A stretch of DNA of 64,000 nt from Gammaproteobacteria bacterium. Lineage in GTDB: Bacteria; Pseudomonadota; Gammaproteobacteria; VBWC01. Each line of letters starts with the position of its first letter. Position 1 is the first letter of the stretch. The stretch covers positions 73,939 to 137,938 of the forward strand of contig JAHFRU010000007.1 of assembly GCA_023266115.1 (NCBI GenBank), given 5' to 3'. The notes under the pieces were generated by a model. The model saw only the letters and a list, made by a program, of their open reading frames with translations. It did not search any database and was not told where the DNA came from. The position numbers and the translations under genes were made by a program. Shown here piece after piece: positions 7,807 through 20,929 of the stretch.

Positions 7807-9300
7807 GTGGTGAGCAGCGAGGCTTCGGCAAGACTTGAGAATACGGCAGACCGGGCGACGCTTGTCGCCCTGTGCCGCACCCTGCTGCCCGCTACCGCGA
7901 TACTCCATGAAGACGACGAGCTGCAGCCCTACGAGTGCGACGGCCTGTCGGCCTATCGCGAAAGGCCGCTGATCGTCTGCCTGCCGGAGAATCTCGAGCA
8001 ACTGCGCTCGCTGGTCAAGCTGTGCTACGACCGCCAGGTACCGGTGGTCGCACGTGGCGCCGGCACCGGTCTGTCCGGCGGCGCGTTGCCACTGCGCGAC
8101 GGCGTGCTGATCAGCCTGGCACGCTTCAACAACATACTCGGTATCGATGTAGCCAATCGCGTCGCACGGGTTGAACCAGGCGTACGTAATCTGGCGATCT
8201 CCGAGGCCGTTGCACCACATGGACTTTACTACGCGCCGGACCCGTCGTCACAGATCGCCTGTTCGATCGGCGGCAACGTCGCCGAGAACGCCGGCGGCGT
8301 GCATTGCCTGAAGTACGGGTTAACGGTGCACAACGTGCTCGGGCTGAAATTGCTGACGATGGAAGGCGAACTGCTGACGATCGGCGGCGCGCGACTCGAC
8401 AATCCAGGCTACGACCTGCTCGCGCTGCTGAATGGCTCCGAAGGACTGCTCAGTATCATTGTCGAGGTCACCGTCAAACTGCTGCCGATACCGGAGCGCG
8501 CCCAGGTGGTGCTGGCCGCCTTCGACGATGTCGAAAAGGCCGGCGCCGCGGTCAGCCGGATCATTGCGGCAGGTATTATCCCCGCCGGGCTGGAGATGAT
8601 GGACACGCTGGCGATCCGTGCCGCTGACGACTACGTGCACGCCGGCTATCCGACGGATGCGGCGGCGATACTGCTGTGCGAACTCGATGGTGATAACGCC
8701 GAGGTGTCCGAATATATCCTGCGTGTGCACGCCTTGCTCAAGGAGTGCGGCGCGACCGAGATTCGCACCGCGGTCGACGAGACCGAGCGTAAACGCTTCT
8801 GGGCGGGCCGCAAGGCGGCGTTCGCCGCGATCGGCCGGCTGGCGCCGGATTATTACTGCATGGACGGCACGATCCCGCGGCACCGCCTGCCGGAGGTGCT
8901 GAAACAGATATCGCAGTGGTCACGGGAGTACGGCCTGCCAGTCGCGAATGTATTTCATGCCGGTGACGGCAATCTCCATCCGCTGATTCTTTACGACGCC
9001 AACCGGCCCGGCGAACTGGAGCGCACCGAGGAATTTGGCGGCCGTGTCCTGGAACTCTGCATCGCGGTGGGCGGCACTATCACCGGCGAGCACGGCGTCG
9101 GCATGGAGAAGATCAATCAGATGTGCGTGCAGTTCACCACCGCCGAGCTGGAACAGTTTCATGCGATCAAATACGCGTTCGATCCGCACGGCCTGCTAAA
9201 TCCCGGCAAGGCGGTACCGACGCTCGCGCGCTGCGCGGAGTTCGGCGCGATGCACGTACACCGCGGTCAACTTCCGTTTCCTGATATCGAGCGTTTCTGA
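7807..9300 (+). CDS. glcD: Glycolate oxidase subunit GlcD (FAD-linked)
   Basis: The 497-residue FAD-linked catalytic subunit of glycolate oxidase, which oxidises glycolate to glyoxylate. An FAD_binding_4 domain (about 45-220) carries the glycine-rich VVARGAGTGLSGG and DPSSQIACSIGGNVAENAGG-type flavin-binding loops. A FAD-oxidase C domain follows, with FHAGDGNLHP and GEHGVG signatures near the C terminus. The start is GTG 7807; GTG 7810 is equally possible. The partner subunits glcE (19865) and glcF (23856) are on the same strand but lie more than 10 kb away, because an accessory electron-transfer cluster sits between glcD and glcE. That split of a normally compact glcDEF operon is the unusual feature here. 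Glycolate would come from 2-phosphoglycolate if the host fixes CO2 through RuBisCO (inference). Confidence 0.95.
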   Translation: MVSSEASARLENTADRATLVALCRTLLPATAILHEDDELQPYECDGLSAYRERPLIVCLPENLEQLRSLVKLCYDRQVPVVARGAGTGLSGGALPLRDGVLISLARFNNILGIDVANRVARVEPGVRNLAISEAVAPHGLYYAPDPSSQIACSIGGNVAENAGGVHCLKYGLTVHNVLGLKLLTMEGELLTIGGARLDNPGYDLLALLNGSEGLLSIIVEVTVKLLPIPERAQVVLAAFDDVEKAGAAVSRIIAAGIIPAGLEMMDTLAIRAADDYVHAGYPTDAAAILLCELDGDNAEVSEYILRVHALLKECGATEIRTAVDETERKRFWAGRKAAFAAIGRLAPDYYCMDGTIPRHRLPEVLKQISQWSREYGLPVANVFHAGDGNLHPLILYDANRPGELERTEEFGGRVLELCIAVGGTITGEHGVGMEKINQMCVQFTTAELEQFHAIKYAFDPHGLLNPGKAVPTLARCAEFGAMHVHRGQLPFPDIERF

Positions 9301-9387: not shown

Positions 9388-11430
9388 CTAACGCAACAGC
9401 GTAAAAATTCCGTCGGCTGCTTTGCGGGAATCGATCAGCTGGATGAGATCATCACGTCGCAGGCGTTGCGCTACGCGGCGCGCATATTCATCCTTGACGT
9501 TCTTGACGTCCGGATTCGCACCGGCCGCCAGCAACTGTTCGGCAACCTCATAGTGACCACCGCTGACGGCTATCAACAGCGCGGTATCACCATGGCGGTT
9601 TTGCCGGTCGAGTTCCGCGCCGGTAACGATCAACTGCTGCGCGACATCCGCGCTGCCGCGGTTGGCAGCGAGCATCAGCGGCGTGTTACCGTCACCGCTC
9701 GGCGCATTGACCGCCGCGCCGGCGCGCAACAAAGCCCCGACGGTGTCATCCGCCCCGGCTTGTACCGCGCGCAGCAGAGGCGTACGCCCTTCGTTGTCGG
9801 CGACATCCGGCAGCGCCCCGGCATTCAATAGCGCGGCAACGACATCCCCGCGCCTGCCGTCAACGGCAAACCACAACGCACTGCGGCCATGATTATCGGT
9901 GGCATTCACGGCGGCACCGCCGGCGATTAGCCGGGCGACCATGTCTGCCGTCGTATACCGGGCGGCCAACATCAGCGTTGTCGAACCGTCGCGGTCCACA
10001 GTATTGATATTCGCTCCGGAGCGCACCAAAGCGTCCGCCGCCGCGTCATGCCCGTTTGCGATGGCCAACGCCAACGCGGTCGCACCATCGCTCGCCACGG
10101 CACCGGTGGCAGCACCGCCACTGACGAGTCGCTCGACGCCTTTTGCATGCCCGTGCTCCGCGGCCAGCATCAGCGCGGTCTTGCCATCCGCCAGCGCAGC
10201 GTCCGCCTGCGCGCCGGCCCGCAACAGCATATCGACGATGATGTCATGACCACGCATCGCCGTGCGAGCCAGCGCCGTGTAGCCCTCGTTATCGCGAACA
10301 TCCACCGCGACATTTCTTTCTTTCAGAAGGCCGGCCACGATTTCCCGCTGTCCCAGCCATGCCGCAACCATCAACGGCGTCCAGCCGGCGTACGGGTTAC
10401 GCGCGTCATCCGGCTCAGGACCCGCGTTTCCGGTCATCGCGGCCCGTGGTCGTTGCGCCGCCTCCGACCGCTGCGCACCGGCTGCCAGCAGCAATCGCGT
10501 TACCGTTTCGTGATTCCGGATGCTCGCAATTTCCAGCGCCGTCCAGCCCTTGTTGTTCGTGGAATCAATGGTCGCTTTACGGTCAAGCAGTATTTGGGTC
10601 AGCGCGGCGTCGCCGCGTGCGGCCACGAGCAGCAGCGGCGTATTGCCATTCTCGTCACGCTCGTTGACGTCGGTCCCCGCAGCGAGTAACGCCTGAACGA
10701 TCTCGACATGTGCGTCCTTGACCGCCAGTAACAGCGCCGTATCGCCGATGCCATCGCGCAGACCGGTTCGCGCGCTGTGTTCCAGAAGCAACCGTGCAAT
10801 CGGCAGGTAACCGGCCGCCACCGCATCCATCAGTGCTGTCCGGCCATACTTGTCCTGCGCGTCGACATTGACGCTGCCACGAAGCAACTCGCTGACGCCT
10901 GCGGCATCGTTGTCACGCACGGCCCAGCGCAGCTTTTCTTCTGCCGGCGCGTCACCGGCCACCGCCCAACGGCTCGGTGGCGCCTGCGCAGTTCCAGCTG
11001 CTTCGTCCGAGGCTGTTTTCGCGAGCGCCAGCGCATGCCCCTGTATCGCAGCCAGGCGATACCAGCGCAACGCCTGCACGGCGTCGACTGGCGTCCCCCA
11101 GCCATTCTCATACATCGTCCCCAGGTTGTACTGCGCCTTGGCATGTCCTTGCGCCGCTGCCTTCGTCAGCAGTGCGAAAGCGGCGTCATGATTCTTGGCA
11201 ACGCCCTGTCCGGCACGATAAAGCGCGGCCAGCTGATATTGCGCCTCGGCATCGCCCCGCTCCGCCAGCGGCTGCAACAACCGCGCGACGTTGCCGTAGT
11301 CGCGGACGCGCGCGGACGCGCGTACGTCATTCATCACATCGTCAATCGAATCAGCGCCGATCGCGGATGAAGCCATAGCGATCGCAAGCACCACGATCGC
11401 CAACGTACTGTTACGCTTACGCGGTGCCAT
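9388..11430 (-). CDS. Secreted Sel1- and ankyrin-repeat protein
   Basis: A 680-residue protein with a signal peptide (about 1-25, ending ...SAIGAD). Two to three Sel1-type helical repeats follow (about 45-140; QYQLAALYRAGQGV, AQYNLGTMYENGWGT). About 14 ankyrin repeats run from residue 165 to near the C terminus, each with the G-TAL/TPL core. Such solenoids are protein-binding scaffolds; no catalytic domain is seen. It overlaps the start-distal end of the ferredoxin/FAD oxidoreductase gene by 14 bases (same strand, downstream), so the two are probably co-transcribed from the divergent promoter at about 12.75 kb. Its position suggests a periplasmic assembly or docking role for the multihaem cytochromes. 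That role is inference. Confidence 0.9.
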   Translation of the reverse strand: MAPRKRNSTLAIVVLAIAMASSAIGADSIDDVMNDVRASARVRDYGNVARLLQPLAERGDAEAQYQLAALYRAGQGVAKNHDAAFALLTKAAAQGHAKAQYNLGTMYENGWGTPVDAVQALRWYRLAAIQGHALALAKTASDEAAGTAQAPPSRWAVAGDAPAEEKLRWAVRDNDAAGVSELLRGSVNVDAQDKYGRTALMDAVAAGYLPIARLLLEHSARTGLRDGIGDTALLLAVKDAHVEIVQALLAAGTDVNERDENGNTPLLLVAARGDAALTQILLDRKATIDSTNNKGWTALEIASIRNHETVTRLLLAAGAQRSEAAQRPRAAMTGNAGPEPDDARNPYAGWTPLMVAAWLGQREIVAGLLKERNVAVDVRDNEGYTALARTAMRGHDIIVDMLLRAGAQADAALADGKTALMLAAEHGHAKGVERLVSGGAATGAVASDGATALALAIANGHDAAADALVRSGANINTVDRDGSTTLMLAARYTTADMVARLIAGGAAVNATDNHGRSALWFAVDGRRGDVVAALLNAGALPDVADNEGRTPLLRAVQAGADDTVGALLRAGAAVNAPSGDGNTPLMLAANRGSADVAQQLIVTGAELDRQNRHGDTALLIAVSGGHYEVAEQLLAAGANPDVKNVKDEYARRVAQRLRRDDLIQLIDSRKAADGIFTLLR

Positions 11431-12727
11431 ATTTCGTCTCGACCTGAATGCCGAGCTTCTGCAAAAAAGGTGTCGGCAGAATACCGCCAGCGCAAATAAT
11501 AACGGCGTCGTTGGATAGTGCGAACGCGCGCCCGTCGTGCTCGATATGCACGTCTGCGGGGTTGATCCGCTGTATTGTTGACTGCAGCAAAACAGTTAGG
11601 CGCCTTTCCTGCGCTGCCAGCGCGATACCTTGCCGGTTCTTCTCTTTTGCACGGGAAAACGCCGCCGATCGATACGACAGCGTGACCGTTGTCCCCGGCT
11701 GGTCGGCAAGACTCAGTGCGGCTTCCAGCGCGCTGTCCCCGCCACCGACGACGAGCACGTGCAGACCGCGGTACTGTTCGGGATCAATCAGGCGGTACAC
11801 CACCTTCGGCAGGTGCTCACCAGCCACCTCCAGCGGGCGCGGCGTGCCTCGCCTGCCGATCGCCAGCAATACCGCCCGGGTGCGATAAGAATCCTTCGTG
11901 GTCCTGACGACAAACCCGTCACCGGACCGTTCGACACCATCGACGCGCTCGTGATAACGAATCTTCAGCCCGGTCTGCCGCTCGATGCCCTGCCAAAACG
12001 CGAGCAACGCCTCTTTGCTGGTCTCGATCAGTTTCACCTTGCCGATTATCGGTAGCTCGACCGGCGCGGTCATGACGATCTTGCCGCGCGGATAATGCGC
12101 CACGGTACCGCCCAGCGAGCCCTGCTCGAGGTTCGCATAACGCAGACCCAATTGCATCGCCGCGAGCGACGCCGCAATGCCCGCCGGTCCGGCGCCGACG
12201 ATGACGACGTCCAGCCGGTCGCCTTTACCGATACCAGCGAGTTTTGCTATCGACGTTATCGCCTGATGCCCCTGCTCGATCGCGTTGCGAATCAACCCCA
12301 TGCCGCCCAGCTCACCGGCGATAAAGATCCCCGGCACATTGGTCTCGAAATTATGTTTGACCAAGGGAATATCGACACCGCGTGCCTCGCTACCGAATAC
12401 CAGCGTGATGGCCCCCTCGGGACAGGCCTCGCGGCAGGCGCCGTGCCCGATGCACGATGCCGGATTGATCAACTCGGCCTTGCGGCCAATAACTCCTAGC
12501 ACGCGGTCCTCCGGACAGGCACTCACGCAGGACCCGCAACCGATGCACAGCAACGGATCGACCACCGGATGTAGCGATGCGGGTTCCATGAGCCCGGCAA
12601 TGCGCGCATTGTCACGCGCAGCAATATTCTTTCGCTGCCGGCGGGTCCGCACGTAAAAATACGCTACCCATATAAATAGCAACGGGACGAAGTAGACGAG
12701 ATATTCAATATCCTGTAACGCCAACAT
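11417..12727 (-). CDS. Membrane-anchored 4Fe-4S ferredoxin / FAD-NAD(P) oxidoreductase
   Basis: A 436-residue flavoprotein. An N-terminal transmembrane helix (about 8-26) anchors it. A di-cluster ferredoxin domain (about 55-110) follows. The first cluster is canonical (CIGCGSCVSACP), but in the second (CIGHGACREACP) His replaces the second Cys. A thioredoxin-reductase-like domain has an FAD loop (DVVIVGAGPAGIAAS, about 175) and an NAD(P) loop (VLVVGGGDSALEAA, about 325). The domain order suggests electron exchange between NAD(P)H, flavin and Fe-S centres on the cytoplasmic face of the inner membrane. It is divergent from the b-type membrane protein and multihaem genes across a 242-base promoter region. 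The likely job is to pass electrons between the cytoplasm and the membrane/periplasmic haem chain; direction is unknown. Confidence 0.9.
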   Translation of the reverse strand: MLALQDIEYLVYFVPLLFIWVAYFYVRTRRQRKNIAARDNARIAGLMEPASLHPVVDPLLCIGCGSCVSACPEDRVLGVIGRKAELINPASCIGHGACREACPEGAITLVFGSEARGVDIPLVKHNFETNVPGIFIAGELGGMGLIRNAIEQGHQAITSIAKLAGIGKGDRLDVVIVGAGPAGIAASLAAMQLGLRYANLEQGSLGGTVAHYPRGKIVMTAPVELPIIGKVKLIETSKEALLAFWQGIERQTGLKIRYHERVDGVERSGDGFVVRTTKDSYRTRAVLLAIGRRGTPRPLEVAGEHLPKVVYRLIDPEQYRGLHVLVVGGGDSALEAALSLADQPGTTVTLSYRSAAFSRAKEKNRQGIALAAQERRLTVLLQSTIQRINPADVHIEHDGRAFALSNDAVIICAGGILPTPFLQKLGIQVETKYGTA

Positions 12728-12762
12728 ACAATGTTGTGTATATCAATTCTCTTTGTAAACGG

Positions 12763-12780
12763 TTGCGACTTCGGTCACAA
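12763..12780. promoter_or_regulatory. CRP/FNR-family-like operator 1
   Basis: The palindrome TTGCGACTTCGGTCACAA matches TGTGA-N6-TCACA with one mismatch (TGCGA-N6-TCACA). Its centre is about 44 bases upstream of the oxidoreductase start codon, in the divergent region of the electron-transfer cluster. Confidence 0.55.
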
Positions 12781-12821
12781 TACGCGGCCTTTTGCGTTTA
12801 GCTCTCGGGCAAATATCAAAC

Positions 12822-12837
12822 CGTGAACAAAATCACA
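12822..12837. promoter_or_regulatory. CRP/FNR-family-like operator 2
   Basis: CGTGA-ACAAAA-TCACA: a perfect right half and four of five bases in the left half of the CRP-type consensus. Its centre is 58 bases from operator 1, in the same 242-base divergent intergenic region. Two such sites in one short region make chance less likely. Confidence 0.55.
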
Positions 12838-12969
12838 CGGCCGGTGTCGAATCAGTTCGCTACCTTAGGACAAGAAACCTTGGGCGCTGGTTCAATCCGG
12901 TCATCTAGCTGACCAGAAGAGTATCAGAGCGATCAACCCGGGTTTTGAGATGTCGATTTATCACCTGAA

Positions 12970-13923
12970 GTGAGTAGTTCGCATCGTCGTGTTGCAAAAA
13001 ATAACGAACCATCTGTCGGAATGCCAACGTCGTCCGGGACCGTAGTCGGGGAAGAGGCTGGCCATGCCTCGTCGACCAGACCCCCGCTCGCATCGCGCCT
13101 TGGTGTGTTGCTGTTCTCTATCGGCGTAATGCTGGCGATCTACACCGGCTGGCAGAACCGGACCACCAGCCTGATGACCGCCGAGTCCGGCGCCGGATAT
13201 GCGCTGGGTATCCTGGGCTCGGTATTGATGCTGGTATTACTGCTGTATCCGCTGCGCAAGCGCGCACGGTTCATGCGCAACCTCGGGCCGATCAAGTACT
13301 GGTTCCGCACCCATATGATCCTCGGTGTCGTCGGGCCCGTGTGCGTGCTGTTTCATGCCAGCTTCCAGTGGGGATCGTTGAACAGTAATGTTGCCCTGGT
13401 CTGCATGCTGCTCGTTGCCGGTAGCGGACTTATCGGACGTTATATCTACACGCGTATTCATTTTGGGCTGTACGGCAGCAAGGCATCACTGCCCGTGCTG
13501 ACGCAGCATGCCATGGAGACATGGGAACAGTTGGCTGCCAGCACAGATCTGCCGCCAGAACTCACGCAGCGGCTGCAACGTCTTGAACAGGCTGCGCTGA
13601 TCCCGCTGCGCGGCCTGCTACACGGCGCTGCCCGCGCAGCCGGATTCGGCATCGCCGTACCGTGGCATGAACTTCGCGCGCGTCTTGCCCTGCGACGGCA
13701 TCTGCAACATGGCGCCGCCGCCGTACTCGACCGGCAACGAAAAAAACAACTGTACCGGCACACCAGACGCTATGTATCGGACTATATCGCCACTATTCGC
13801 AAGATAGCGGTCCTGGGTTTCTATGAACGCCTGTTTGCGCTGTGGCACGTGCTGCATATGCCACTGTTCCTGATGATGCTGATCACCGGTATCGTTCACG
13901 TTGTCTTTGTCCACATGTACTGA
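12970..13923 (+). CDS. Ferric-reductase-like b-type haem membrane protein
   Basis: A 317-residue inner-membrane protein. A polar N-terminal tail of about 40 residues is followed by hydrophobic segments at about 42-60, 77-95, 110-130 and 137-157. After a soluble loop, the last pair lies around 278-317. Candidate haem-ligating His residues lie in the membrane segments (RTHMILG, LFHASF, LWHVLHMP, GIVHVVFVHMY), spaced as in cytochrome b561/ferric-reductase-like proteins; this is motif-based inference. The start is GTG 12970; ATG 13021 is an alternative that shortens the tail by 17 residues. It is the first gene of the rightward arm and is followed 17 bases later by the 21-haem cytochrome. It is the natural candidate for moving electrons across the inner membrane between the quinone pool or the flavoprotein and periplasmic haems. 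Confidence 0.82.
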   Translation: MSSSHRRVAKNNEPSVGMPTSSGTVVGEEAGHASSTRPPLASRLGVLLFSIGVMLAIYTGWQNRTTSLMTAESGAGYALGILGSVLMLVLLLYPLRKRARFMRNLGPIKYWFRTHMILGVVGPVCVLFHASFQWGSLNSNVALVCMLLVAGSGLIGRYIYTRIHFGLYGSKASLPVLTQHAMETWEQLAASTDLPPELTQRLQRLEQAALIPLRGLLHGAARAAGFGIAVPWHELRARLALRRHLQHGAAAVLDRQRKKQLYRHTRRYVSDYIATIRKIAVLGFYERLFALWHVLHMPLFLMMLITGIVHVVFVHMY

Positions 13924-13940
13924 CCGGTGCCAGAGACGGC

Positions 13941-15506
13941 ATGATCAGAACTCTGGCCAGATTACTTGTTTGCGTGTACGCGATGCTGCCGGGTACCGGC
14001 AGTCCTGTGCTGGCCGCCAACATCGAAACACTGATGATGCCGGGCCCGCTGATCACGGGGCATGCGAAATACGAAAACGAGTGTCAGAAATGCCACAAGC
14101 CGTTCAGCAAGGCACGTCAGAATGATCTCTGCCTGGATTGTCATGACAAGGTCGCGGCCGACATCAAGAAGCTCGCCGGCCACCACGGCCGAATCAAGGA
14201 CATCGGCGAACTTGAGTGCAAGCAGTGCCATACGGACCACAAGGGCCGGGGCCACGACATCGTCCAGTTCAACCGCGAGACGTTCGACCATGACATGACG
14301 GACCTCGCGCTGACCGGCGGTCATCGTACCGTCCGCTGCGCGGCCTGTCATAAGAGCGGCACACGGTATCGCGACGCGCCGACGGATTGTTACAGCTGCC
14401 ATAAAGACAACGACCCGCATCGGGGAAAACTTGGCAAGGATTGCAAATCCTGTCATGACACCACCCGCTGGGCAAAGGTCGCATTCGATCACGACAAGAC
14501 CGATTTTCCGTTGAAGGGCGAGCACAAACGAACGGCGTGCCAGGGCTGTCACCTGAACGAGCGCTACAAGGATGTGGCAACGGCCTGCGTCGCCTGTCAT
14601 CGCCTGGCGGACATCCACGGCGGACGATACGGCGAGAAATGCGGCGACTGCCACACAGCGGCGGACTGGAAAAAATTCGCCTTCGACCACGACACAACCG
14701 ACTTTGTGCTGCGCGGCCGGCACGGAAAGATTGCCTGCAGCGTCTGTCATATCAAAACACTCTACAAAGACAAGCTCGGCAAGACCTGCATTGACTGTCA
14801 CAAAAACGATGACGACCACAAGGGTACCTACGGCAAGAAATGCCAGAGCTGCCACCGCGAAGACACATGGACCCGCATAGCGTTCGATCACGACAAGGAC
14901 ACCGACTTCCGCCTGACCGGAAAACATCGCAAGGTCGCCTGCCGCGACTGCCACATGGGCGATATCTACGACGAGAAAACCGCGACGCAGTGCATCGCCT
15001 GCCACAAAAAGAATGATGTGCACAACGGCCAGCAGGGCAAGCAGTGCGGCCGCTGCCATAACGACGAAGGCTGGGGCAGGAAAATCGTGTTCGATCACGA
15101 CCTGACCGGAATGCCGCTGATCGGCCTGCACGCGCTGGCACCCTGCGAAGAATGCCACCTGACCGCCGGTTTCAAGGACACCAAATCCGACTGCATCGCC
15201 TGTCATCTCGCCGACGACAAACACAAACTGCGACTCGGACCCGGCTGCGGCCTGTGCCATAACCCGAATGGCTGGGCGCTGTGGCGTTTTGATCACAATA
15301 CCCAGACCGACTACAAGCTCGACGGCGCGCACAAGGGCCTCGACTGCCATGCATGCCACACCACTCCCGCCGTCAAGGACGTGCACGTAACGCAGGCATG
15401 CGGCGTCTGCCACCGGCCCGACGACATCCATGACGGGCGTTTCGGTCAGTACTGCGAGCGCTGTCACGTCACGGAATCGTTTAAAAAAATAAAATCATTG
15501 CGTTGA
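13941..15506 (+). CDS. 21-haem periplasmic c-type cytochrome
   Basis: A 521-residue secreted protein with a signal peptide (about 1-25, ending ...SPVLAAN) and 21 CxxCH motifs, one haem per 24 residues. After an N-terminal three-haem section, six modules of about 60 residues recur. Each opens with FDHD or FDHN, then a G-x-H, and contains three CxxCH motifs (for example CQGCH, CVACH, CGDCH). ATG 13941 was chosen because the signal peptide begins there, 17 bases after the upstream stop; an in-frame extension to 13842 is only overlap with the membrane protein gene. Downstream, TGATG couples it to the next cytochrome. It should form a long haem wire through the periplasm. High Lys/His/Asp content is visible. 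No catalytic domain is recognisable. Confidence 0.93.
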   Translation: MIRTLARLLVCVYAMLPGTGSPVLAANIETLMMPGPLITGHAKYENECQKCHKPFSKARQNDLCLDCHDKVAADIKKLAGHHGRIKDIGELECKQCHTDHKGRGHDIVQFNRETFDHDMTDLALTGGHRTVRCAACHKSGTRYRDAPTDCYSCHKDNDPHRGKLGKDCKSCHDTTRWAKVAFDHDKTDFPLKGEHKRTACQGCHLNERYKDVATACVACHRLADIHGGRYGEKCGDCHTAADWKKFAFDHDTTDFVLRGRHGKIACSVCHIKTLYKDKLGKTCIDCHKNDDDHKGTYGKKCQSCHREDTWTRIAFDHDKDTDFRLTGKHRKVACRDCHMGDIYDEKTATQCIACHKKNDVHNGQQGKQCGRCHNDEGWGRKIVFDHDLTGMPLIGLHALAPCEECHLTAGFKDTKSDCIACHLADDKHKLRLGPGCGLCHNPNGWALWRFDHNTQTDYKLDGAHKGLDCHACHTTPAVKDVHVTQACGVCHRPDDIHDGRFGQYCERCHVTESFKKIKSLR

Positions 15507-17431
15507 TGACCAAACGGAATCGCTGCCCTATGAGCCCTACAAACCCGCCATCACACCCTGTCCTCTACAGGATCGCCGCATGCGTCATGGTCGTACTCGC
15601 AATGACGCTGGCGATGCCCACGCAGGCGGCACCGGACTCCGGCAGCGAATTCGATCACTTTGCGACCGGTTTTCCGCTCAGCGGCGGCCACGCCCGCGTC
15701 GACTGCGAAAGCTGCCATGTGCGCGGCGTATTCAAGGGCACGCCACTGCGCTGTAGCGCCTGCCACGTGCAGTCCGGTTACGTCAACGCATCCATCAAGC
15801 CCCGCAACCATATTCCCAGCACCGATGACTGCGAGGACTGCCACCGCGAAGCGAACTGGCGCTTCGTCAGCCGGGTTGATCACCTCGCCGTACGCGGCAG
15901 CTGCGCCAGCTGTCACAATGGCTCGGTCGCCTCAGGCAAACCCCCGCTGCATATCGCCAGCGGCAACAACTGTGACGATTGCCATACGACGGGCTCATGG
16001 GCGTCGGCGGTGTTCGATCATGCGACAGTGACCGCCGCGTGCGTCAGCTGTCATAACGGCGGCACCGCAACAGGCAAGTCGCCAACCCATATACAGACCA
16101 CCAATATCTGCGAGGACTGTCACTCAACCCGCGGCTGGGCGCCAGTCTTGCGCGTCGACCACCTCGCTGTCATCGGTGCCTGCTTCAGCTGTCATAACGG
16201 CGTTACCGCTACCGGCAAACATAGCCGACATATCACGAGCAGTAATAACTGCGGCGATTGCCACACGACCCGCAACTGGGACGCAGCCGTATATGACCAC
16301 AGCAACATCACCGGCAACTGTGCGAGCTGCCATAACGGCTCTACCGCGACCGGTAAATCATCCGGCCATATCCAGAGCACGAATGTCTGCGAAGACTGCC
16401 ACTCAACAGGCCAGTGGACGCCGGCGCTGCGTGTCGATCACCTTGCCGTCATCGGCACCTGTATCAGCTGCCACAACGGTGTTATTGCCACCGGCAAACA
16501 TGCCGGGCATATCGCCAGCGGCAACACCTGCGGCGACTGCCACTCGACCAGCGCGTGGACCCCGGCCGTATTCGATCACAGTGGCGTCACCGGAAATTGC
16601 GCCAGCTGCCATAACGGCTCCACCGCGACCGGCAAGTCGCCGACCCATATACAGACCACCAATGTCTGCGAGGACTGTCATGCCACGCGCGGCTGGGCAC
16701 CGGTCTTGCGTGTAGACCATCTTGCCGTCATCGGCGCCTGCTACAGCTGCCACAACGGCGTTATTGCCACCGGCAAACACCCCGGACATCTGACCAGCGG
16801 CAACAGTTGTGGCGACTGCCACTCGACCAACGCGTGGACGCCGGCGGTGTTCGACCACATCGGCGTCACCGGCAACTGTGCCAGCTGCCATAACGGCAGC
16901 ACGGCCACCGGAAAATCTGCCAGCCATATTGCGACCTCGGGCGGCTGCGAGCTCTGCCATACCGCGGTGGCATGGACACCGACGCATTTCGATCACAACG
17001 CGGTCAGCGGATCATGCTCCAGCTGTCACAACGGCAGCGCCGCAACCGGCAAGGGTGCCGGCCACTTCGTCACGAGTCTGCAGTGCGATACCTGTCACTC
17101 GACCACCAACTGGACGACACTGAGATTCACGCACAGCTCACCGGACTATCCGGGCGATCACCGCGGCAACCTGGCGTGCACCGCATGCCATACCGCTAAT
17201 TCCCAGGTCGTTAACTGGACCAGCGCCGCGTACAAGCCGAATTGCGCCGGATGCCATGCGAACCGCTACAAGAGCGGACCTCACAAGAAGCACCAGAATC
17301 CCGATGTTTTTTATACGGTCTCCGAACTGCGCGACTGTTCGGGAAGTTGTCATATCTATTCAGACAGTTCCCTGACTACGATCACGACGAGACGTAGCGG
17401 CGAACACAAGGTCAACGATGGAGGCTTCTAA
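15506..17431 (+). CDS. Giant repeat cytochrome with 23 CxxCH plus one CxxxCH motif
   Basis: A 641-residue secreted multihaem cytochrome. The start overlaps the previous stop (TGATG, 15504-15508). The signal peptide ends at about residue 43 (MPTQAA); a second Met (15530) would shorten the N region. I count 23 CxxCH motifs, plus DCSGSCH near the C terminus, which is CX3CH and may bind a 24th haem. The centre is a tandem array of alternating 47- and 46-residue di-haem modules (CEDCH...SCHNG then CGDCH...SCHNG), a 93-residue / 279-bp unit repeated about three times with high DNA identity. The N-terminal module (FDHFATGFPLSGGH) matches the modules of the preceding cytochrome, showing common ancestry. 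It is probably extracellular or threaded through the outer membrane by the downstream barrel (inference). Confidence 0.93.
   Translation: MTKRNRCPMSPTNPPSHPVLYRIAACVMVVLAMTLAMPTQAAPDSGSEFDHFATGFPLSGGHARVDCESCHVRGVFKGTPLRCSACHVQSGYVNASIKPRNHIPSTDDCEDCHREANWRFVSRVDHLAVRGSCASCHNGSVASGKPPLHIASGNNCDDCHTTGSWASAVFDHATVTAACVSCHNGGTATGKSPTHIQTTNICEDCHSTRGWAPVLRVDHLAVIGACFSCHNGVTATGKHSRHITSSNNCGDCHTTRNWDAAVYDHSNITGNCASCHNGSTATGKSSGHIQSTNVCEDCHSTGQWTPALRVDHLAVIGTCISCHNGVIATGKHAGHIASGNTCGDCHSTSAWTPAVFDHSGVTGNCASCHNGSTATGKSPTHIQTTNVCEDCHATRGWAPVLRVDHLAVIGACYSCHNGVIATGKHPGHLTSGNSCGDCHSTNAWTPAVFDHIGVTGNCASCHNGSTATGKSASHIATSGGCELCHTAVAWTPTHFDHNAVSGSCSSCHNGSAATGKGAGHFVTSLQCDTCHSTTNWTTLRFTHSSPDYPGDHRGNLACTACHTANSQVVNWTSAAYKPNCAGCHANRYKSGPHKKHQNPDVFYTVSELRDCSGSCHIYSDSSLTTITTRRSGEHKVNDGGF
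15890..17060 (+). repeat. 279-bp tandem repeats within the giant cytochrome gene
   Basis: Blocks encoding the GKSPTHIQTTN-CEDCH segment recur 558 bases apart (near 16075 and 16633), exactly two 279-bp units. The units remain similar at DNA level, suggesting recent duplication or gene conversion and possible copy-number variation. Confidence 0.75.
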
Positions 17432-17963
17432 CAACGTGATCGCATACATACGACGTTCTTCGATGGCGGCGCTGGCGTTGGTCGCTGCGACGGCCGGACC
17501 GTGGTCCGTAGCGCACGCCGCGCCGATGGCAACCCGCATAATCGACGGCATCGCCTTGACTACTGAAGGCCACTGCAGCGTGATTACACTGACCTTTCTG
17601 TTGCCGCTGCAATATATCCGGCATTTCCCCGACAGTTACGGCGACGAAGTACTGGTACGTGTCGAGCCACTCGAGACGGGCCGCGTGGACAACGACGCAC
17701 TATCCGCCCGCGAAGCGGTCCGTCCGCAACCGCCAGTCGATACGCCGCTGGTAATGGCGATCTACGAAGGCGATATCGCCGACGGTCCCTACGTACGTTT
17801 TCAGTTCGAGCACCCGGTGAATTTCAGCGTATCCCAGGGCACTGACTTTCGCAGCCTGATCGTGACCGTCGCCGACACCGGTCAGGACGGCGGTGCACCG
17901 GCCTGCGGCAGCGAGCCGCCTCCGTTACCACAACCGCTATCCGTATTATATGAGGAGCAATAA
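17418..17963 (+). CDS. Small secreted protein of the multihaem cluster
   Basis: A 181-residue protein whose gene begins 14 bases before the giant cytochrome stop, so translation is coupled. A basic N region (YIRRSS) and a hydrophobic stretch (AALALVAATAGPW) end at VAHAAP, which looks like a cleavable signal peptide. The mature part is predicted to be mostly beta-strand (ITLTFLLPLQYI, VLVRVEPLE, YVRFQFEHPV, RSLIVTVAD), loosely similar to AMIN-like peptidoglycan- or partner-binding domains. I do not assign a family. No haem motif; two Cys residues in the mature protein (one early, one near the Pro-rich C terminus). Position between the cytochrome and the beta-barrel suggests an assembly or anchoring factor. 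GTG 17436 is a possible alternative start. Confidence 0.8.
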   Translation: MEASNNVIAYIRRSSMAALALVAATAGPWSVAHAAPMATRIIDGIALTTEGHCSVITLTFLLPLQYIRHFPDSYGDEVLVRVEPLETGRVDNDALSAREAVRPQPPVDTPLVMAIYEGDIADGPYVRFQFEHPVNFSVSQGTDFRSLIVTVADTGQDGGAPACGSEPPPLPQPLSVLYEEQ

Positions 17964-18024
17964 TGCGGCTCTCCCGACCCGTTTACCGACCACGCCGGCC
18001 AACTCACCCGGCAGCCGCAACAAG

Positions 18025-19758
18025 ATGATTTCTCCGGGCACTTACCGTTTGACTACCCGCTGGCTGCTGGCCGTGCTGGTATTGTGCATGCTGCACGCAA
18101 CGCCCGTTCAGGCAGCGGACGAGGCGCAACCGCTGCCGGCGCTTACCGCGGAGCGCCAGGCCGAACTGATGGAGCAGGCACGCCAGGCGATGGCGGCCCA
18201 AAAGTATGATGATGCGATTCGCATCTATACCCGGCTGACCGAGGAACCCGCGCCGGAAATTCACCAGCAGGCGCTGGAGTATCTCGGCGTCGCCCGCGAA
18301 CGTAACGGCCAGGTCGCGCACGCCAAGGCACTGTACGAGGACTATCTGCAACGTTACCCGAAAGACGACGGTGCAAAACGCGTCAGCCAGCGCCTCGCCG
18401 GTCTCACGACCGCGCGCGAAGAACCGCCGGACGAATTGCGGCGCGGCAAATCCCGGAATGCGCTCGCCCATTGGGACTCCCACGCGGGTATCTCGCAGTA
18501 CTACCGGCGCGATGTCAGCTCCACCGACGCCGGCGGCGATACCGTTGACCGCTCGTCACTCGATACCGGCATCGATGTCACCTCGCGCCTGCGCGGCGCG
18601 GACTTCGACCTCGGCGCACGCTTCTCGGGCAACAACGAATACGATTTTCTCGCTGCCGGCGACCATCAGACACGCATCAGTTCGCTGTACATCGACGGCG
18701 CGACGTCGCAACGCCTGCTGTCCGGCCGGCTGGGACGCCAGACCAGCACCCGCGGCGGCGTACTCGGTCGCTTCGACGGTCTGTTCGCGGGCTATCAACT
18801 GACTCCGACCAGCCGGCTCAACATCGTGACGGGATATCCGGTCGAAACCACGACGGCGACGGCGATCGATACCGCGCGGCCGTTTTACGGCCTGAATGTC
18901 GATCTGGGCGCGCCGGGCAGTGCATGGGAGCTCAATGTATACACAATCGAACAACGCGTCGGCGCGATCACCGACCGTCAGGCCGTCGGCGGGGAAATGC
19001 GTTACTTTCAGGCCAGCCGCTCAATGTTCGCCATGCTCGACTACGACACGTTGTTCAACGACGTCGACCTCGCGCTGCTGACCGGCAACTGGCTGTTGCC
19101 GGGCAACAGCAATCTTAGCATCGTTGCCGACCATCGTCGGAGCCCGCTGCTGATGACCAGCAACGCGTTGATCGGCCAGACGGCAACGTCCATCGATGAA
19201 CTGCGGCTGAGCAACAGCGACGACGCGATTCAGCAACTGGCACAGGACCGGACCGCCACCAGCGACTCGCTGATGCTCGGCCTGTCGCGCCCCGTCAGTG
19301 CACGCCTGCAGCTCAGCGGCGATGTCACCGTGTCCAGCCTGTCGGGTACGCCGGCCTCCGGCGGCGTCGCGGCCAACGATGATACCGGCAACGACTACTA
19401 CTATTCCGTGCAGCTGGTCGGCAACGATCTGCTGAAACAGGGCGACACCGCAATCGTCGGCCTGCGTTTTGCCGACACCAGCAGCGCCGCGACAACATCG
19501 TTGATGCTGAACACGCGCTACCCGCTCGGCGATGCCTGGCGCGTCAATCCCCGTTTGCGCGTCGACCACCGCGAATTTTCCCTGGCCGCTGGCGACCAGT
19601 GGACGGCAGCGCCGTCGATCCGCGTCAACTACCGCTGGCGCAAACGTTATTTCTTCGAGATCGAATCCGGCGGCGAGTGGTCGTCCCGGCGCCTGAGCAA
19701 CACCACCGACAGAACCACGAGCTCCTATCTCAGCCTCGGCTACCGGGCCGACTTCTAG
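18025..19758 (+). CDS. TPR-domain outer-membrane beta-barrel protein
   Basis: A 577-residue protein. The signal peptide is at about 1-32 (LLAVLVLCMLHATPVQAA), followed by periplasmic TPR helices at about 40-130 (KYDDAIRIYTRLTEE, AKALYEDYLQRYPKD). The rest is alternating amphipathic strands characteristic of a beta-barrel, with a terminal aromatic residue (YRADF) as expected for Bam-dependent insertion. ATG 18025 gives the signal peptide directly; ATG 17950, overlapping the previous gene, is an alternative. It closes the rightward arm of the cluster. By analogy with porin-cytochrome conduits (MtrAB type, established for other families), the barrel could hold a multihaem cytochrome across the outer membrane and the TPR could dock the periplasmic partner; both points are inference. 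glcE follows after 106 bases. Confidence 0.85.
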   Translation: MISPGTYRLTTRWLLAVLVLCMLHATPVQAADEAQPLPALTAERQAELMEQARQAMAAQKYDDAIRIYTRLTEEPAPEIHQQALEYLGVARERNGQVAHAKALYEDYLQRYPKDDGAKRVSQRLAGLTTAREEPPDELRRGKSRNALAHWDSHAGISQYYRRDVSSTDAGGDTVDRSSLDTGIDVTSRLRGADFDLGARFSGNNEYDFLAAGDHQTRISSLYIDGATSQRLLSGRLGRQTSTRGGVLGRFDGLFAGYQLTPTSRLNIVTGYPVETTTATAIDTARPFYGLNVDLGAPGSAWELNVYTIEQRVGAITDRQAVGGEMRYFQASRSMFAMLDYDTLFNDVDLALLTGNWLLPGNSNLSIVADHRRSPLLMTSNALIGQTATSIDELRLSNSDDAIQQLAQDRTATSDSLMLGLSRPVSARLQLSGDVTVSSLSGTPASGGVAANDDTGNDYYYSVQLVGNDLLKQGDTAIVGLRFADTSSAATTSLMLNTRYPLGDAWRVNPRLRVDHREFSLAAGDQWTAAPSIRVNYRWRKRYFFEIESGGEWSSRRLSNTTDRTTSSYLSLGYRADF

Positions 19759-19864: not shown

Positions 19865-20929
19865 ATGAATGCCGATATAAGTAACGAACTCCGCGATACT
19901 GTCCTGAAAGCCGCAAACGCCAAAACGCCGTTGCGCATTCAGGGCAGCGGCAGCAAGGATTTCATCGGTCAGGCGCCGTCCGGCGAACGCCTGTCGCTGC
20001 GCGAACATCACGGCATCGTCAATTACCAGCCCAGCGAACTGGTGCTGACAGCGCGCGCCGGCACGCGGCTGTCGGACATCGAATCACAACTCGCGCAACA
20101 CCGGCAGATGCTGCCGTTCGAGCCGCCGCACTTCGGTCCCGATGCGACTCTCGGCGGCACCATCGCCTGCGGCCTGTCGGGGCCACGCCGCCCGTACGCG
20201 GGCAGTGCCCGCGACTTCGTGCTCGGCGTACGGCTGATCAACGGCAAGGGCGAGATACTGCGCTTCGGCGGCGAGGTCATGAAAAACGTCGCCGGTTTCG
20301 ACGCATCGCGATTGATGGTCGGTGCGATGGGCACGCTCGGCGTACTGCTGGATATCTCGATGAAGGTCCTGCCCCGGCCCGAGACCGAGGCAACACTGGT
20401 ATTCGAACTGGGCACAGCGGCGGCGATCGACCGGATGACGCAGTGGTCGGGTCAACCGCTGCCGGTCAGCGCCGCATGCCACGACGGCCAGCGGCTGCAT
20501 CTGCGGCTGTCGGGCGCGGCGTCCGGCGTTAATGCCGCGCGGCAACGCCTTGGCGGCGAAACGCTGAATGGCGCTGACGCGTTCTGGCGCAGCGTGCGCG
20601 AGCTGAGCCATCCGTTCTTCGACGATGACGCACCGTTGTGGCGTTACTCGCTGCCGCCGGCCACGGCGGCGCTGACGTTCAGCAAGCACTGGTTTATCGA
20701 CTGGGGTGGTGCGCAGCGCTGGGTGAAAACCGTATTACCCGCCAGCATCGTGCGCGAAACCGCCGCTCGCGCCGGCGGTCACGCCACGCTGTTTTACAGC
20801 GTCAGGCGCGAAAGCACGTTCTTCCACCCGCTGACGCCGGCGGCATTGACACTGCACAAGCGCCTCAAGGCGGCGTTCGATCCGCACGGCATACTTAATC
20901 CCGGCAGACTTTACCGTGATATCGGATAA
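19865..20929 (+). CDS. glcE: Glycolate oxidase FAD-binding subunit GlcE
   Basis: A 354-residue second flavin subunit of glycolate oxidase. The FAD_binding_4 domain includes the GSGSKDF motif near residue 21, LVLTARAGTRLSDIE, and the glycine-rich LGGTIACGLSGPRRP and GEVMKNVAGFD regions typical of GlcE. The C terminus ends with FDPHGILNPGRLY, the motif shared with GlcD. Its true operon partners are glcD, now 10.5 kb upstream, and glcF, 3 kb downstream. Transcription may read through from the multihaem cluster, which ends 106 bases before it. Confidence 0.93.
   Translation: MNADISNELRDTVLKAANAKTPLRIQGSGSKDFIGQAPSGERLSLREHHGIVNYQPSELVLTARAGTRLSDIESQLAQHRQMLPFEPPHFGPDATLGGTIACGLSGPRRPYAGSARDFVLGVRLINGKGEILRFGGEVMKNVAGFDASRLMVGAMGTLGVLLDISMKVLPRPETEATLVFELGTAAAIDRMTQWSGQPLPVSAACHDGQRLHLRLSGAASGVNAARQRLGGETLNGADAFWRSVRELSHPFFDDDAPLWRYSLPPATAALTFSKHWFIDWGGAQRWVKTVLPASIVRETAARAGGHATLFYSVRRESTFFHPLTPAALTLHKRLKAAFDPHGILNPGRLYRDIG

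Follow-up and report, generated by a model that had tools for sequence, protein, structure and literature searches.

Among described systems, the porin-cytochrome clusters termed PCC3 come closest to the locus considered here. In the sections of He 2017 (PMC5566968) devoted to these clusters, PCC3 and PCC4 are defined by an inner-membrane protein with two WX3HX13H motifs and one SGXXG motif; the PCC3 cytochromes are described as carrying haem-bearing repeats, a role as a wire is already proposed for them, and a haem count of 85 was reported in 2017. PCC3 cytochromes of the Gallionellaceae have 10-35 haems and AlphaFold models that are long and mostly linear, according to the part of Hoover 2023 (PMC10734462) that deals with them. 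In published work the function of PCC3 is putative, the direction of electron transfer included (PMC12442390).

The window analysed here is a stretch of 64,000 nucleotides from a gammaproteobacterium (positions 73,939 to 137,938 of contig JAHFRU010000007.1, assembly GCA_023266115.1). By its gene set, the region at 11417-19758 is a PCC3 porin-cytochrome cluster in the sense of He 2017 and Hoover 2023 (Table 1). PCC3 inner-membrane proteins of about 300 aa carry two WX3HX13H motifs and one SGXXG, and the protein found here has 317 aa, with WFRTH...H at 111, WHVLH...H at 292 and SGLIG at 152. The predicted periplasmic multihaem cytochromes of PCC3 have a median of 21 haem sites, and the gene here encodes 21 CXXCH motifs. 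Its TGA overlaps by one base the ATG of the 15506-17431 gene, whose product has the repeats and the low residue-to-haem ratio of a PCC3 multihaem cytochrome (600 mature residues for 24 sites, or about 25 residues per haem in the mature chain) and is probably extracellular. In relatives, homologues of the inner-membrane protein, the porin and the 21-haem cytochrome adjoin the gene for this cytochrome. Across 74 related loci, many of which end at contig edges, the porin is present in 59, the inner-membrane protein in 56 and the Fe-S/FAD oxidoreductase in 54. The porin occurs in 47 of the 369 genomes of the class, and in 38 of 314 when only good genomes are counted. The MtrB/PioB porin family model TIGR03509 gave no match in the window genome, nor did it match any control genome.

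Table 1. Features of the PCC3 cluster in the window (positions as numbered in the window)
Feature	Position	Strand	Basis or remark
4Fe-4S/FAD-NAD(P) oxidoreductase, divergent, frequent PCC3 neighbour	11417..12727	-	54/74 loci
PCC3 inner-membrane protein, 317 aa, likely di-haem b, two WX3HX13H and one SGXXG	12970..13923	+	
Periplasmic 21-haem PCC3 cytochrome, 21 CXXCH, first ATG 13941	13941..15506	+	periplasmic location predicted
Extracellular PCC3-type multihaem cytochrome, 641 aa, 23 CXXCH and 1 CX3CH	15506..17431	+	ATG-started ORF, cluster context; surface location inferred
Signal peptide, residues 1-41 (...AMPTQA|AP)	15506..15628	+	predicted, translation inspected by eye
Tetra-haem unit W1, most diverged unit	15833..16111	+	
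Tetra-haem unit W2	16112..16390	+	
Tetra-haem unit W3	16391..16669	+	
Tetra-haem unit W4	16670..16948	+	
279-bp segment absent from sister L001	16458..16740	+	junction anywhere in 16458-16462 (+279)
C-terminal CX3CH site, CSGSCH	17336..17353	+	Cys, Cys, His kept in 67/67 rows
His634, conserved free His, likely second ligand of CX3CH haem	17405..17407	+	His in all 45 rows that are not gapped at this column
Small conserved protein between cytochrome and porin genes, without family match	17418..17963	+	weak matches in 27/74 loci
PCC3 porin, N-terminal TPR, presumed beta-barrel	18025..19758	+	TPR match; homologue in 59/74 loci

The oxidoreductase has an N-terminal hydrophobic stretch and may connect PCC3 either with NAD(P)H or with the b-type protein of the inner membrane. 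The small protein that precedes the porin looks secreted and, by eye, resembles an AMIN-type beta domain. The cluster is adjoined by an Ankyrin/Sel1-repeat protein at 9388-11430, with matches in 24 of the 74 related loci. The whole PCC3 block (9388-19758) sits between the glycolate oxidase genes glcD (7807-9300) and glcE (19865-20929), and has the look of an insertion into a glycolate oxidase operon; in the sister genome described below, glcE likewise lies downstream of the block.

An earlier note on this DNA had counted 24 haem motifs in the 15506-17431 gene, and this count stands, with 23 CXXCH and one CX3CH (CSGSCH). The four-haem unit of 279 bp, or 93 residues, with halves of 47 and 46 residues, is likewise borne out: from haem 3 onward the haem spacings repeat as 24, 23, 23, 23, each half forming a di-haem module, and TRF returns a period of 279 with 3.5 copies and 75% matches. 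When the core is compared with itself at a lag of 279, identity reaches 0.72; the highest value that 500 codon shuffles gave at any lag was 0.38, so that chance does not account for the repeat. The unit had been thought to recur about three times; it does recur, but in four copies in register, the first of which is more diverged. The description of these copies as near-identical, with high DNA identity, does not survive. The four units share 63-78% identity in DNA and 61-80% in protein, the longest exact tract common to any of them is 21 bp, and codons for identical amino acids differ in 34-47% of cases. These figures argue that the units are old and have been maintained by conservation at the protein level. 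A fresh, near-identical duplication is ruled out as their origin by the identity between units and by exact tracts of at most 21 bp.

Only one other genome was found at the level of genus, family or order, that of a sister in the same genus (genome G001, locus L001); it and the window genome are both drafts in multiple contigs (46 for one and 60 for the other). Its cytochrome gene aligns to that of the window at 95.0% DNA identity with a single gap, which is exactly 279 bp long, and in the assembly it has 19 + 1 motifs. The junction can be pinned to 5 bp (16458-16462) between units 3 and 4, and the third unit of the sister is a W3/W4 mosaic. Since nothing else in the two genes matches the extra segment at more than 76%, the difference is better explained by a unit lost from the sister than by one newly gained in the window gene. 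At six sites to the left of the junction the sister has the base of unit 4; a single simple crossover may therefore not be the whole event, and gene conversion or later mutation may have contributed. A search of the sister gene for exact repeats of 20 bp or more found none.

Complete extracellular homologues range from 13 to 93 CXXCH motifs (n=66), and the number is odd in 62 of the 66. Three of the four even counts are accounted for by a motif without its His (L046), an internal CX3CH (L122) and an internal CX4CH (L130), leaving L114 as the one true departure. When related proteins that differ in count are aligned in pairs, 81 of the 97 gaps of at least 15 residues have a length that is a multiple of 46-47 residues (~46.5), where about 8 would be expected by chance; the pairs overlap and are not independent, so that the figure is descriptive. 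The homologues with 49 and 61 haems (L010 and L022), for instance, are separated by gaps of 93 and 186. Of 56 relatives, 51 have a periplasmic partner with 21 haems. The proposal that such arrays expand and contract thus holds between species, the sister lacking 279 bp and more distant relatives differing by modules of 46/47 or 93 residues; it is near-identity as the setting for these changes that falls away in the window gene. Units that are nearly identical do occur in some relatives, with exact tracts at lag 279 of 126 bp in L050, whose array reaches the contig end, and of 110 bp in L124, there between units 3 and 4. Such tracts point to recent exchange in those genes. Gain and loss could not be polarised for the pair L113/L124, the sequences being too diverged.

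Genomes assembled in one contig include one with a homologue of 19 haems (G080) and one with homologues of 23 and 69 haems (G034), the genes for the latter two lying in tandem (L112). Another locus, L033, has two complete copies and one cut copy. The longest array, in a Pseudorhodobacter MAG (L044:1897-8829), has 93 CXXCH and one CX3CH in 2311 aa, which exceeds the 85 of the 2017 account. A search of a plasmid collection returned one distant match only.

For a survey of the haem ligands, 122 in-register rows were aligned. Throughout the repeats, one free and fully conserved His lies between successive CXXCH motifs, as expected if the repeat haems are bis-His, each liganded by the His of its own motif and by a further, invariant His. 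The C-terminal half contains 13 CXXCH and the CX3CH, 14 haem sites in all, and 14 free His that are conserved, or mostly so. Among relatives, the terminal CXnCH loop has n = 3, 4 or 6, and the column of His634 is gapped in those with CX4CH; in L010, L013, L019 and others the protein has a terminal CX4CH or CX6CH, often ending ...CHRIS, and the later free His is absent. The terminal CX3CH is probably a haem site, since it is conserved, internal CX3CH and CX4CH motifs occur in relatives, a gene for CcmE is present in the window genome and there is a precedent in ImcH (PMC6295460). That precedent also means that CX3CH is known elsewhere, and the earlier view of it as an unusual haem site is probably right as regards the haem site and not upheld as regards its being unusual.

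Structure prediction gave no linear stack of the modules, which the earlier note had proposed as a check. An AlphaFold model of the full length, from 24 homologues, had a pLDDT of 40.5 and a pTM of 0.18; one of the C-terminal half, from the 122 in-register rows, reached 66.6 and 0.41, with good confidence confined to the last ~120 residues. With the latter model, which is weak over the repeats, Foldseek matched no solved fold, and VIA-align, given a single chain to align, found no match. Stacking is thus without structural support here, given the low confidence over the repeats and the lack of a Foldseek match, and the linear wire is one that we infer from what is known of the family. The suggested resemblance to filament-forming cytochromes is not sustained either: the gene belongs to a porin-cytochrome cluster, and in a profile search of solved structures the nearest were decahaem cytochromes of the MtrA/MtrC type (6r2q at E 3e-9, MtrC entries at E ~1e-8). 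We take 6r2q to be the MtrCAB complex, although its file names chain A in a way that is at odds with this. OmcS, OmcE and OmcZ were not matched in the profile search, the fold comparison being limited by the weak model. The NCBIfam domain nanowire_3heme gave a sub-threshold match only.

The reading preferred here, to which we assign a probability of about 0.75, is that the 15506-17431 product is an extracellular PCC3 cytochrome built as a string of di-haem modules, that recombination alters the number of these modules and hence the reach or capacity of the protein, and that its partner stays fixed at 21 haems. Electrons would pass between a partner outside the cell and the quinone pool by way of the extracellular cytochrome, the porin, the 21-haem periplasmic cytochrome and the inner-membrane b-type protein. 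The extracellular chain would be a succession of di-haem modules of ~46.5 residues, mostly paired in relatives as 93-residue tetra-haem units, in which each haem, if loaded, would be bound by two His, that of its CXXCH motif and a further invariant one; the chain would end in a conserved cap that bears a CXnCH site. Misaligned recombination between partly matching units would add or remove whole modules in frame, changing external reach or capacity as the periplasmic part remained at 21 haems. That unit number changes the length of the wire, as had been supposed, is plausible on this model. The window genome carries two RuBisCO genes and a haem-copper oxidase (COX1), which point to an aerobe capable of carbon fixation, and on these grounds the uptake of electrons from an outside donor is somewhat favoured as the direction. 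More tentatively, and short of an even chance, PCC3 outer cytochromes in general may be natural length-variable wires, with di- or tetra-haem modules recombining in frame and selection tuning their reach against a partner locked at 21.

Unit number may instead drift neutrally. Recombination might change it under weak selection on length, and the span from 13 to 93 CXXCH without obvious constraint would suit such neutral drift, as would the loss of modules in frame, which keeps the ligand sets intact. Against this, haem number is the same in 43 of 98 close pairs, so that change is slow on this scale, and 11 complete homologues are all at 39, although shared ancestry alone could explain both. 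Drift is a serious, if minority, possibility. It is unlikely that the protein is instead mainly a surface store of electrons, or capacitor, whose charge capacity, rather than reach, would depend on haem number and whose chain could be non-linear. Storage is offered as an alternative in the PCC3 discussion of Hoover 2023 (PMC10734462), and the present AlphaFold models contain no linear stack; the regular spacing of ligands and the strict module size fit an ordered chain, as do the long, mostly linear Gallionellaceae models in that discussion (PMC10734462).

Two further explanations are both very improbable. One is that the unit missing from the sister was lost in assembly, both genomes being drafts and repeats a known cause of collapse, with the arrays of some relatives, such as L050, running to contig ends. 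Exact repeats in the two genes concerned are short, not exceeding 21 bp in the window gene and staying below 20 bp in the sister, and the spread in unit number is seen in one-contig genomes too. The other would make the protein a subunit of a polymerising nanowire. Long haem chains are a theme common to extracellular cytochromes such as OmcS, OmcE and OmcZ, and the protein is haem-dense and presumably extracellular, but its profile matches are of the MtrA/MtrC type rather than to those three, and its gene stands within a porin cluster beside that of a 21-haem partner.

The PCC3 cytochromes bear on how long haem chains evolve and on the adaptive value of their length. The family forms a natural length series, from 13 to 93 CXXCH, with a near-constant partner, and includes two congeners one exact unit apart; chain length could therefore, in principle, be measured directly against the range or rate of electron transfer.

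Of the known systems, the PCC3 clusters of Sideroxydans, Leptothrix and others are most like the locus, sharing with it, in the PCC3 accounts of PMC5566968 and PMC10734462, the gene set and order, the motifs of the inner-membrane protein, haem-bearing repeats and a low residue-to-haem ratio. What the present comparison appears to add to this known kind is an exact, quantised change of length set against a near-constant 21-haem partner; neither the module quantum nor the exact loss of a unit between congeners features in those PCC3 accounts of He 2017 and Hoover 2023. MtrA and MtrC are related to the protein at the profile level, have CXXCH motifs with separate His ligands and form part of a porin complex, but they have 10 haems and are without its 93-residue tandem units. 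OmcS, OmcE and OmcZ are extracellular haem chains too, but are polymerised from subunits, and the profile search showed no sequence relation between them and the window protein. The tandem c7-domain cytochromes of Geobacter, of the dodecahaem GSU1996 type, consist of repeated small haem domains and are wire-like repeat proteins as here, their units being trihaem whereas those of the window protein are tetra-haem.
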